DNA of 64,000 nt, taken from assembly GCA_003612405.1 (NCBI GenBank), contig RAYR01000001.1:1-64000 (forward strand). The letters run 5' to 3'. Below, piece after piece: positions 14,427 to 42,364 of the stretch (the stretch's first letter is position 1; each line of letters starts with the position of its first letter). Below the pieces are notes generated by a model. It was not told the origin of the DNA and did no database searches. It saw nothing but the letters and a program-made list of their open reading frames with translations. The position numbers and the translations under genes are program-made. The DNA is from a bacterium 0.1xD8-71 (GTDB lineage Bacteria > Bacillota > Clostridia > Lachnospirales > Lachnospiraceae).

Positions 14427-17156
14427 ATGGCTGAAAAACTGGTATTGATAGATGGACACAGCATATTGAACAGAGCCTTTTATGGCGTGCCGGATCTGAC
14501 CAACAGTCAGGGCCTTCATACCAATGCGGTGTATGGTTTTCTGAATATCATGTTCAAGATTTTAGAGGAAGAGAAGCCGGACTATCTGACGGTTGCGTTT
14601 GATGTACATGCGCCTACGTTCCGGCATGAGATATATAAGGAATATAAGGGCACAAGGAAACCCATGCCGTCAGAACTGCACGAACAGGTGCCGGTGATGA
14701 AACAGCTGTTGCAGGCCATGGGAATCTGTGTGGTGGAGAAAGCCGGACTGGAGGCGGACGACATTCTGGGAACCATCGCAAAGCGCGGTGAGAGAGCCGG
14801 GATGGAAGTGTCCCTGGTGTCGGGGGACAGAGACCTTTTGCAGGTGGCCACAGAGCATATCCGGATTCGGATTCCCAAGACCAAGGGCGGCAGGACAGAG
14901 GTAGAAGATTATTATGCCAGGGATGTGGAAGAACGGTATCAGGTCAATCCGCTTCAGTTTATTGATTTAAAGGCCCTGATGGGAGACACGGCGGATAATA
15001 TTCCCGGTGTACCGAAGGTGGGAGAAAAGACAGCTACGGAGATGATGGTGACTTTTGGTTCTCTGGAGAATATCTATGAGCATATAGAGGAAGTTGCCAA
15101 AAAGTCTGTGCGGGAGTCTCTGGCGGCCAATAAAGATCTGGCGGATTTGAGTAAAACGCTGGCGACAATCAATGTGGATGCTGAGATTGCATATGACTTT
15201 GACAAGGCAAGGGTAGGTAATTTTTATACCGAGGAAGCTTATGTACTGTGCAAACAGCTGGAATTTAAAAATCTCCTGTCCAGATTCGAGAAAGAGGTGA
15301 CTGTCACCAACAGTCAGACAGAATATTTTCGGGAGATAACACAGTTGTCTGAGGTGGAAGCCCTGTTTGAGGAAATCCGGCAGACGGGGGAGAAGGACGG
15401 AGGCAGGCAGGAGATTGGTCTGGCGGTCTTTAAGGACAGCAAACAGGCGGACAGCCTTATGGGCATCGCCCTGGCTCTGGAACAGAAGAACGTTGTGTTT
15501 ATTCCCTGTCAGGGACTTGTGACAGCCAGATATCTGTGCGGCAAGCTGATTGATCTGAACAGACATGAGTTATGTAAACTAAATATATTTGACTGTAAGA
15601 ACTGTTATGATGTAATCGAGGAAGGTGTTCATCAGAGTATGTGGCGGGCAGATGACGGCTCACAGGATGTGTTGGCGCCCTACAGAAAAGAGCGATACTT
15701 TGACCTTCTGGTGGCGGCTTATCTGTTAAATCCCTTAAAGAATGATTATGCGCCGGAGGATATTGCCGGAGAGTATCTGGGGCTTACCATTCCGGACAGG
15801 GGACAGGTCTGCGGCAAGGCATCTTATGCGGATACCTATGCGGCCCATCCCCGGGAATTTATGGAATATGCCTGCTTTAATGCTTATGTGTGTCTGATGG
15901 CGGCGCCGTTTCTGCGCAAGAAGCTGGAAGAGCAGGGCATGAAGTCGTTGCTGTATGAGATTGAGATGCCGCTCACCCGGGTGCTGCATGACATGGAATG
16001 TTATGGCGTGCTGGTGAAGCCGGATGAACTGAAGGCATACGGGGAGGCGCTGACCGGCAGGATTGCAGAACTGGAACAGGCAGTCTACAGGCAGGCAGGC
16101 TGTGAATTTAATATCAATTCTCCCAAACAGTTGGGAGAAGTCCTGTTTGAGAAGATGGGAATCAAGGGCGGTAAAAAGACCAAGACCGGCTATTCCACGG
16201 CGGCGGATGTTCTGGAAAAGCTTTCGGCGGATTATCCGGTGGTTTCGGATATCCTGGAATATCGAGGGCTTGCGAAACTGAAATCCACTTATGCGGAAGG
16301 ACTTGCAGCCTATATTGATGAGGAGGGAAGGATCCATTCCACCTTCAATCAGACGATTACCGCCACCGGGCGCATCAGTTCCACGGAGCCTAATCTACAG
16401 AATATTCCCATGCGTATGGAACTGGGCAGACGGATCAGAAAGGTCTTTGTGCCCATGGAGGGATGCCTATTCATGGATGCGGATTATTCTCAGATAGAGC
16501 TGAGGATACTGGCCCATATGTCAGAGGATAAACAGCTGATTGAGGCATATCAGATGGAAGAAGATATTCATCGGATTACAGCTTCCAAGGTGTTCCATAC
16601 GCCTTTCGAGGAAGTTACTGACTTACAGAGGCGCAATGCCAAGGCTGTCAATTTTGGCATTGTCTATGGCATCAGCTCTTTCGGTTTAAGTCAGGATCTG
16701 AGTATCTCGAAGAAGGAAGCGGCGGCCTATATCGAGCAGTATTTCGAGACCTATCCGGGGGTAAAAAGATTCCTGGATAATATGGTGGAAAAGGCCAAGA
16801 GCCAGGGGTATGTGACGACCATGTACGGGCGCAGACGGCCGATTCCGGAACTGACCTCCAGTAATTTCATGCAGCGTTCTTTTGGGGAACGAGTGGCCAT
16901 GAATTCGCCCATTCAGGGCACGGCGGCGGATATCATGAAGATTGCCATGGTCCGGGTATGGGAGAGCCTGCACAGAGAAGGACTCAAGTCCAGGATGATC
17001 TTGCAGGTGCATGACGAGCTTTTGATTGAGACCTACGCCGGGGAAGAAGAACAGGTGCGCAGGATTCTTACACAGCAGATGCAGCAGGCGGCAGATCTTT
17101 CGGTGACTCTGGAGATTGATCTGCATACAGGGGATAATTGGTATCAAACAAAATAA
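14427..17156 (+). CDS. polA: DNA polymerase I
   Basis: A 909-residue family A DNA polymerase for Okazaki-fragment maturation and repair. The N-terminal 5'-nuclease domain (about 1-290) starts LVLIDGHSILNRAFYG. The middle domain (about 300-510) keeps the 3'-5' exonuclease fold, but I see no DxE motif in its first strand (GLAVFKDSK), so proofreading is probably lost, as in other Gram-positive Pol I enzymes. The polymerase domain has motif A DADYSQIELRILAH, motif B RRNAKAVNFGIVYGIS and motif C QVHDELLIET. GGAGG eight bases upstream supports the start. The coaE gene follows after 78 bases that hold the double-hairpin element. Confidence 0.97.
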   Translation: MAEKLVLIDGHSILNRAFYGVPDLTNSQGLHTNAVYGFLNIMFKILEEEKPDYLTVAFDVHAPTFRHEIYKEYKGTRKPMPSELHEQVPVMKQLLQAMGICVVEKAGLEADDILGTIAKRGERAGMEVSLVSGDRDLLQVATEHIRIRIPKTKGGRTEVEDYYARDVEERYQVNPLQFIDLKALMGDTADNIPGVPKVGEKTATEMMVTFGSLENIYEHIEEVAKKSVRESLAANKDLADLSKTLATINVDAEIAYDFDKARVGNFYTEEAYVLCKQLEFKNLLSRFEKEVTVTNSQTEYFREITQLSEVEALFEEIRQTGEKDGGRQEIGLAVFKDSKQADSLMGIALALEQKNVVFIPCQGLVTARYLCGKLIDLNRHELCKLNIFDCKNCYDVIEEGVHQSMWRADDGSQDVLAPYRKERYFDLLVAAYLLNPLKNDYAPEDIAGEYLGLTIPDRGQVCGKASYADTYAAHPREFMEYACFNAYVCLMAAPFLRKKLEEQGMKSLLYEIEMPLTRVLHDMECYGVLVKPDELKAYGEALTGRIAELEQAVYRQAGCEFNINSPKQLGEVLFEKMGIKGGKKTKTGYSTAADVLEKLSADYPVVSDILEYRGLAKLKSTYAEGLAAYIDEEGRIHSTFNQTITATGRISSTEPNLQNIPMRMELGRRIRKVFVPMEGCLFMDADYSQIELRILAHMSEDKQLIEAYQMEEDIHRITASKVFHTPFEEVTDLQRRNAKAVNFGIVYGISSFGLSQDLSISKKEAAAYIEQYFETYPGVKRFLDNMVEKAKSQGYVTTMYGRRRPIPELTSSNFMQRSFGERVAMNSPIQGTAADIMKIAMVRVWESLHREGLKSRMILQVHDELLIETYAGEEEQVRRILTQQMQQAADLSVTLEIDLHTGDNWYQTK

Positions 17157-17161
17157 CAAAG

Positions 17162-17210
17162 GTAAATTTGCTTCGCAAATTAACTTTGCGAGGACCGCTT
17201 CGCGGCCTCG
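17162..17210. repeat. Intergenic double-hairpin element, copy 1
   Basis: A 49-base element between polA and coaE. The first hairpin is AATTTGC-TTC-GCAAATT (17165-17181). The second is CGAGG, a bulged A, CCGC-TTC-GCGG, CCTCG (17189-17210). A third pairing, CGCAAA with TTTGCG, is possible and excludes the first hairpin. A second copy at 42270-42318 is identical at 43 of 49 positions by my count, and its changes keep the left stems paired. Neither copy ends in a T-run, so they do not look like plain terminators. Confidence 0.7.
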
Positions 17211-42099: not shown

Positions 42100-42273
42100 G
42101 TGAGCATGTGTGATACATGCAGCAACTATCAGTATGATGAAGATTACGAGTGTTATGTATGCATGGTGGATCTGGATGAGGATGATATGAGCCGTTTCTT
42201 AAGCGGAGGTAATTTCCAATGTGCCTTCTATCAACTCGATAATGAATATCTGATTGTACGAAAACAAAAGTAA
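42100..42273 (+). CDS. Cys-rich mini-protein (DUF6472-like)
   Basis: A 57-residue protein of about the length of DUF6472 members. It reads VSMCDTCSNYQYDEDYEC, then YVCMVDLDEDDMSRFL and later FQCAFYQLDNEYLIV. The CxxC, CxxC and single C suit a metal site or disulfides. The GTG at 42100 has GGGAGG nine bases upstream; the ATG at 42106 is an alternative. It lies directly after the 41787 gene, and its stop codon lies within copy 2 of the double-hairpin element. No function is known to me. Confidence 0.7.
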   Translation: MSMCDTCSNYQYDEDYECYVCMVDLDEDDMSRFLSGGNFQCAFYQLDNEYLIVRKQK

Positions 42274-42318
42274 ATTTACTTTGTAAATTAACTTTACGAG
42301 CTCCGCTTCGCGGCCTCG
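42270..42318. repeat. Intergenic double-hairpin element, copy 2
   Basis: The second full copy of the element at 17162. The first hairpin is AATTTAC-TTT-GTAAATT (42273-42289), and the right part is CCGC-TTC-GCGG with flanking GAG/CTC-like pairing. The differences from copy 1 change G-C to A-T pairs in the first stem on both sides, and the alternative TTTAC pairing is kept as well. It sits at the end of the Cys-rich mini-gene, next to a terminator. Confidence 0.7.
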
Positions 42319-42325
42319 GATAAGC

Positions 42326-42364
42326 AAAAAATTTTGCCCCGGCATGGGATTAACATGCCGGGGC
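42326..42364 (-). terminator. Terminator of the activase fusion gene
   Basis: A perfect 11-bp GC-rich stem (GCCCCGGCATG with CATGCCGGGGC, 7-base loop) at 42336-42364. On the minus strand it is followed by AAAATTTTTT, so it ends transcripts from the 42378 gene. It may also stop plus-strand transcripts, but lacks a T-run on that side. Confidence 0.75.

Follow-up and report, generated by a model that had tools for sequence, protein, structure and literature searches.

The locus considered here raises the question of why a short, apparently folded piece of DNA occurs both directly behind polA and at the end of a small gene. The window, that is, the whole stretch of DNA analyzed, comprises the first 64,000 nucleotides (C11:1-64000) of contig C11 in the 4.1 Mb, 72-contig genome of an uncultured Lachnospiraceae (G000). 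A first-pass annotation had reported two look-alike 49-base copies, at 17162-17210 and 42270-42318, and had suggested that their fold is selected and that they might belong to a dispersed family. The two copies do match at 43 of 49 positions, and no third copy was found in the window. With a probability of roughly 0.7, we read them as members of a lineage-specific family of small, non-autonomous, structured interspersed repeats of the REP/BOX type, co-transcribed at gene ends.

The Two Window Copies and the Repeat Unit

Copy 1 lies between polA and coaE at 17158-17210 on the forward strand (covariance model R1, E = 8.2e-17), 1 nt past the TAA stop codon of polA (17154-17156, +; ORF 14427-17156, DNA_pol_A). 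Its hairpin 1 (17159-17187, +), AAGGT-A-AATTTGC(TTC)GCAAATT-A-ACTTT, in which unpaired A17164 faces A17182, is supported by the MFE fold (z = -5.0) and by pair counts, as is its hairpin 2 (17189-17210, +; MFE fold and pair counts), CGAGG-(A bulge 17194)-CCGC(TTC)GCGG-CCTCG. Copy 2 occupies 42266-42318 (+; E = 1.7e-16) at the end of a DUF6472 mini-gene (42100-42273; DUF6472, E = 2.1e-25). It consists of hairpin 1 (42267-42295, +; MFE fold, z = -3.25), AAAGT-A-AATTTAC(TTT)GTAAATT-A-ACTTT, and hairpin 2 (42297-42318, +; MFE fold), CGAG-CT-CCGC(TTC)GCGG-C-CTCG, after which a 3' tail begins with GATAAGC at 42319-42325 (+). The TAA stop codon of the mini-gene (42271-42273, +) falls inside hairpin 1 and is supplied by the element, as the sequence and the orthologous sites indicate: the protein ends in RKQK* with the element, and in RKQM* (ATG TGA or ATG TAA) in relatives without an element here. 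The earlier statement that neither copy is fully coding therefore needs qualifying, since copy 2 does overlap coding sequence, while copy 1 starts just past the polA stop. The 49-base extent was also too short, the full element in the first case spanning approximately 17158-17210 plus the tail.

In general, the repeat consists of a two-hairpin part of approximately 53 nt and a tail (GGATAAGCGGAAG) that opens with GATAAGCGGAA (consensus over 50 copies), giving a unit of hairpin 1, hairpin 2, and tail of about 75-85 nt. The main form of hairpin 1 is AAAGT-A-AATTTGC(TTC)GCAAATT-A-ACTTT, with the A·A mismatch kept; the stem AATTTGC/GCAAATT that was first recognized is thus present, as the inner part of a longer one. 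Hairpin 2 has the general form CGAG-(bulge)-TCCGC(TTC)GCGGA-CTCG, with a one-base bulge kept. Several types of hairpin 1 occur, including AATTTGC/GCAAATT, a shorter ATTTGC/GCAAAT, AATTCC/GGAATT, and an unrelated AATCGAGC/GCTCGATT. Units of hairpin 2 and tail are tandemly multiplied at C11:231182, C2:41906, and C4:32837, among others. At the position corresponding to C11:225391, two hairpins of the GGAGA-A-AATTCC type stand head-to-tail without hairpin 2 in two related genomes (G040:C10:52155 and G037:C5:19229); their order is swapped between these two genomes, and they are absent from G000.

Copy Number and Distribution

A genome-wide blastn search of G000 with one copy as the query returned 46 matches. 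The covariance model, trained on 14 copies, returned 102 matches at E ≤ 1, including approximately 50 full-length copies at E < 1e-7. This list contains surplus reverse-strand rows because hairpin 1 matches its own complement; with such self matches removed, approximately 75 independent copies remain at E < 1e-3 (~50 full-length and ~25 weaker). Copy number and E-values together exclude chance similarity.

In the survey of the genus, 53 of 60 genomes have matches, with 0-98 per genome and at least 1,045 in total, and these counts are lower bounds as stricter filters and a ceiling of 99 scored candidates were applied per genome. Outside the genus, just two of approximately 198 genomes of the family have a match, weak and single in each, and when GTDB genomes were scanned for the core pattern, matches were confined to uncultured Lachnospiraceae or relatives. 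The family is therefore essentially restricted to one genus. A scan of Rfam at the gathering score matched no family, and at a lax threshold gave just a chance match to Spot 42 (E = 2.5). Nothing relevant on such repeats in Lachnospiraceae was found in the literature searched, mostly without subscription papers, so that absence there is not proof; within that literature, the family is REP/BOX-like and nowhere described.

A Conserved Two-Hairpin Fold

For the structure test, 107 copies (87 distinct) were aligned. Because this alignment had been made to fit the fold, it leans toward it, but the gap over the controls is very large despite this bias: 98.3% of pair cells are paired, compared with 93.7% in shuffled alignments and 21-48% with slid structures. 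Both sides have changed at 13 of 20 pairs, with 83 compensatory cells versus 16.3 in shuffles, and the outer pairs of hairpin 1 covary as well (AGGT/ACCT, GAAGT/ACTTC, TATAGT/ACTATA). The paired change between AATTTGC/GCAAATT and AATTTAC/GTAAATT, from which the first-pass annotation had argued for a selected fold, is thus real and general. That claim survived: further copies are numerous, and the stems are kept far more often than they are broken. A second proposal did not fare as well, namely that a competing pairing, GCAAA/TTTGC, is mutually exclusive with the first stem. This pairing is complete in just 44 of the 87 distinct copies and largely missing from the GGAATT subfamily, and therefore it is not a conserved switch.

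Paired changes could also arise by mutation, through template switching that perfects quasi-palindromes, rather than by selection on the fold. The elements are indeed near-perfect palindromes, and hairpin-1 units have been duplicated or reordered at one site (site N). Template switching would, however, be expected to repair the mismatch and the bulge of hairpin 2. Yet 78 of the 87 distinct copies have A·A in the mismatch column, which speaks against such repair having produced the paired changes, and hairpin 2 has a bulge or internal loop in nearly all copies, where the bulge can shift register while staying a bulge (CGAGGAcTGC..GCATCCTCG). We regard a purely mutational origin as improbable.

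The copies themselves give no clear preference for a fold in RNA or in DNA. RNA folds of the copies have z-scores of about -3.3 to -5.0, and both DNA strands fold about equally well. Counting G·T wobbles against A·C as a guide to the folding strand gave 24 versus 17, no clear excess (binomial p = 0.35). Most triloops read TNC on the top strand (73 of about 86 copies in one hairpin and 70 in the other), which corresponds to C-GNA-G on the bottom strand, a loop type that is very stable in DNA. These bottom-strand loops might point to a DNA fold, but this is suggestive only, as other types of hairpin 1 have other loops.

Placement at Gene Ends and Stop Codons

Placement was assessed for 66 copies with a simple codon-score gene caller; its calls are rough, tandem or shared copies count only partly as independent observations, and some of those at contig edges were excluded. 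In sense orientation (n = 47), the 5' edge of the element is strongly anchored at the upstream stop codon, lying within 10 nt of it in 37 of 47 copies, against 8.4 expected under uniform placement in the same gaps (20,000 simulations, maximum 17). By contrast, the 3' side has a facing stop codon no more than 10 nt away in none of 34 cases, and tolerance of random insertions does not by itself account for stop codons being found at the 5' edge rather than at the 3' edge. The copies are enriched between convergent genes (17 of 66 classified copies versus 19 of the 293 junctions on C11) and avoid the gaps between divergent ones (2 of 66), and 17 of 66 are antisense. At some copies, as in the mini-gene above, the element supplies the stop codon of the upstream gene. 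This placement, together with the many copies found by the covariance model, supports the initial suspicion of a many-copy, REP/MITE-like family at gene 3' ends.

At the mutS-mutL junction of G000 (C11:213953, locus L246), the hairpins are gone and the tail GGATAAGCGGAAG is left, now giving the stop codon of mutS; other parts of the element are present at this junction in G040 and G037.

A GC-rich hairpin 2 at gene ends might recall an ordinary intrinsic terminator, in which a GC hairpin is followed by a T-run. No T-run follows hairpin 2, and separate, real terminators are located behind several copies, for example at 42336-42364 in the window, while no terminator-like site was found at the polA-coaE junction. 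The view that the copies are not terminators themselves thus holds, and an explanation by ordinary terminators or chance similarity has next to no probability.

Turnover between Close Relatives

C11 was set against syntenic contigs of three relatives, G028, G037, and G040, at about 80-87% identity. A triple array at C11:231182 in G000 has no counterpart in G040 and G037, where two genes overlap at the empty site. The site of window copy 2 (C11:42266) is likewise filled in G000 and empty in G040, in G037, and, at the exact place, in G028, which carries a partial copy nearby, differently placed. Lineage-specific copies also occur at C11:70886, 218257, 78122, and 26374. Overall, presence differs between close relatives at most sites examined, with insertion and deletion not always separable. 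Neither terminal inverted repeats nor target duplications recurred consistently at a handful of filled and empty sites (K, M, F, C, and G).

The copies also change in type. Between polA and coaE, element types or arrays differ among G000, G040, and G037, and no element is found in G028 and more distant relatives. Hairpin 1 has been swapped for an unrelated palindrome at three orthologous sites (polA, C11:29938, and C11:168177), and at the latter two (sites C and I) hairpin 2 and the tail are recognizably the same.

Three sites are identical in G000 and G040. Each lies in a tract with 100% identity over about 400 bp or more, in surroundings of 80-90% identity, which suggests that recent recombination between species carried these copies. 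Tracts 100% or nearly identical to G040, all with element copies, are located at C11:168450-168850, 243800-244500, and 226250-227250 of G000; one of these covers the leader of a probable rpmB.

These patterns bear on another possible explanation, in which the element is not a selfish repeat but a host regulatory RNA, a pair of 3'-UTR hairpins selected at the stop codon to tune termination or mRNA decay. The anchoring of the 5' edge at stop codons on the sense strand, copies within operons such as polA-coaE, and the wholesale swaps of hairpin 1, which imply that the fold rather than the sequence is kept, are all consistent with such a role. Against it stand the variation in presence between close relatives at most sites examined, the range from 0 to 98 copies per genome within the genus, the antisense copies, and the lack of a clear excess of G·T over A·C. 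We therefore consider this explanation possible but doubtful as the main account.

The Search for a Mover

Classical REP sequences are moved by a RAYT (TnpA-REP), a Y1 transposase that binds the hairpin in single-stranded form. Such a mover would fit several features of the element: its two palindromes are imperfect, interrupted by a mismatch or bulge, its tandem arrays resemble BIMEs, and its bottom-strand loops are mostly d(C-GNA-G). On the other hand, the stem lacks the 5' GTAG/GTGG tag, the sole Y1 transposase of G000 has the motif YIQNQ and is IS200-like, and no element was found near this gene or near 30 Y1 loci. Over 60 genomes, the number of Y1 genes shows no significant correlation with the number of copies (rho = 0.14, p = 0.29), and no Y1 gene was detected in G040 (98 copies), G032 (43), or G013 (40). 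We rejected Y1_Tnp as the mover on these grounds, and a RAYT-driven family, largely refuted, is quite unlikely. A second, unrelated repeat (..CCTTGTAAGAACGA(G/A)TCCTACAAGGTCCTGAATTTTACTG..) flanks the lone IS200-type tnpA on both sides (L044:1165-1300 and 2700-2820).

A reverse transcriptase was also rejected, since RVT_1 has no match in G028 (90 copies) and other genomes, including one with 41 copies, although the genomes with 90 and 41 copies are drafts; a reverse transcriptase is therefore not required. As to vectors, no copy of the element was found in the viral contigs searched, and no similar DNA in the phage and plasmid records searched, so that phage, viral, and plasmid vectors are without a match in these collections. 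The mover of the element was found neither among Y1 transposases nor among reverse transcriptases.

A Probable REP/BOX-Type Family and Its Relation to Known Repeats

The observations are those expected of small structured interspersed repeats in general: dispersed copies, a conserved fold, presence or absence between relatives, and no coding capacity. Many copies, the two-hairpin fold, presence/absence, tandem growth of hairpin 2 and tail, and stop-codon placement are observed directly. We propose that copies may spread in trans by an enzyme that recognizes the folded single strand, and in part between species by ordinary recombination, as at the three sites above. Copies landing at gene ends would be retained, being harmless or slightly useful in that position. 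Judging from position and the literature (PMC12306157, PMC3049150, PMC3733652), a co-transcribed copy would form a stable hairpin directly past the stop codon, in a position to hold up the ribosome during termination or to shield the message upstream. Such effects have been reported for REPs of E. coli located no farther than 15 nt from a stop codon. A more specific version is tentative and rather unlikely: a mobile pair of hairpins, either specifically targeted to stop codons in sense orientation or selected there, that brings its own stop codons, exchanges hairpin 1 wholesale, and has a mover that is neither Y1 nor reverse transcriptase.

Among known repeats, the family resembles pneumococcal BOX (PMC3049150), a modular, RNA-folding interspersed repeat of a Firmicute with a variable number of inner modules, enrichment between convergent genes, and no proven mover, which supplies stop codons to 36 upstream genes in pneumococcus. 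Compared with BOX by description, the Lachnospiraceae family differs in having two hairpins plus a tail and a 5' edge tightly anchored to stop codons. Its empty sites are readable, whereas empty sites could not be found for at least one repeat family in that study (PMC3049150).

REP/BIME sequences with a RAYT (PMC6006769, PMC2817692) are likewise short, imperfect, intergenic palindromes with a mismatch or bulge that form tandem mosaics, and REPs also occur near stop codons and supply them (PMC12306157, PMC3733652). The present element shares the imperfect palindrome, high copy number, and extragenic location. REPs are, however, defined by a GTAG/GTGG tetranucleotide 0-2 nt 5' of the stem (PMC6006769), and the upstream flanks of about 80 copies read AAAAG, TGAAG, (TA)AC, etc.; a cognate REP-class Y1 transposase is also missing from several high-copy genomes. 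Moreover, the element combines two distinct hairpins whose order and orientation are fixed. CGTC-tagged REPs (PMC3733652) share with it a palindromic form, a location downstream of genes, and the lack of a transposase of their own, but the element has no CGTC tag and a different architecture. With MITEs it shares being short, non-autonomous, high-copy, and folded, and it differs in the lack of terminal inverted repeats or consistent target duplications at the handful of sites compared.

The family adds a large and structurally clear set of repeats for a major gut lineage. Several high-copy genomes have no detectable Y1 gene, which prompts the question by what means repeats of this kind spread when no RAYT is present. 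The syntenic filled and empty sites of the family allow asking what hairpins directly past stop codons do.
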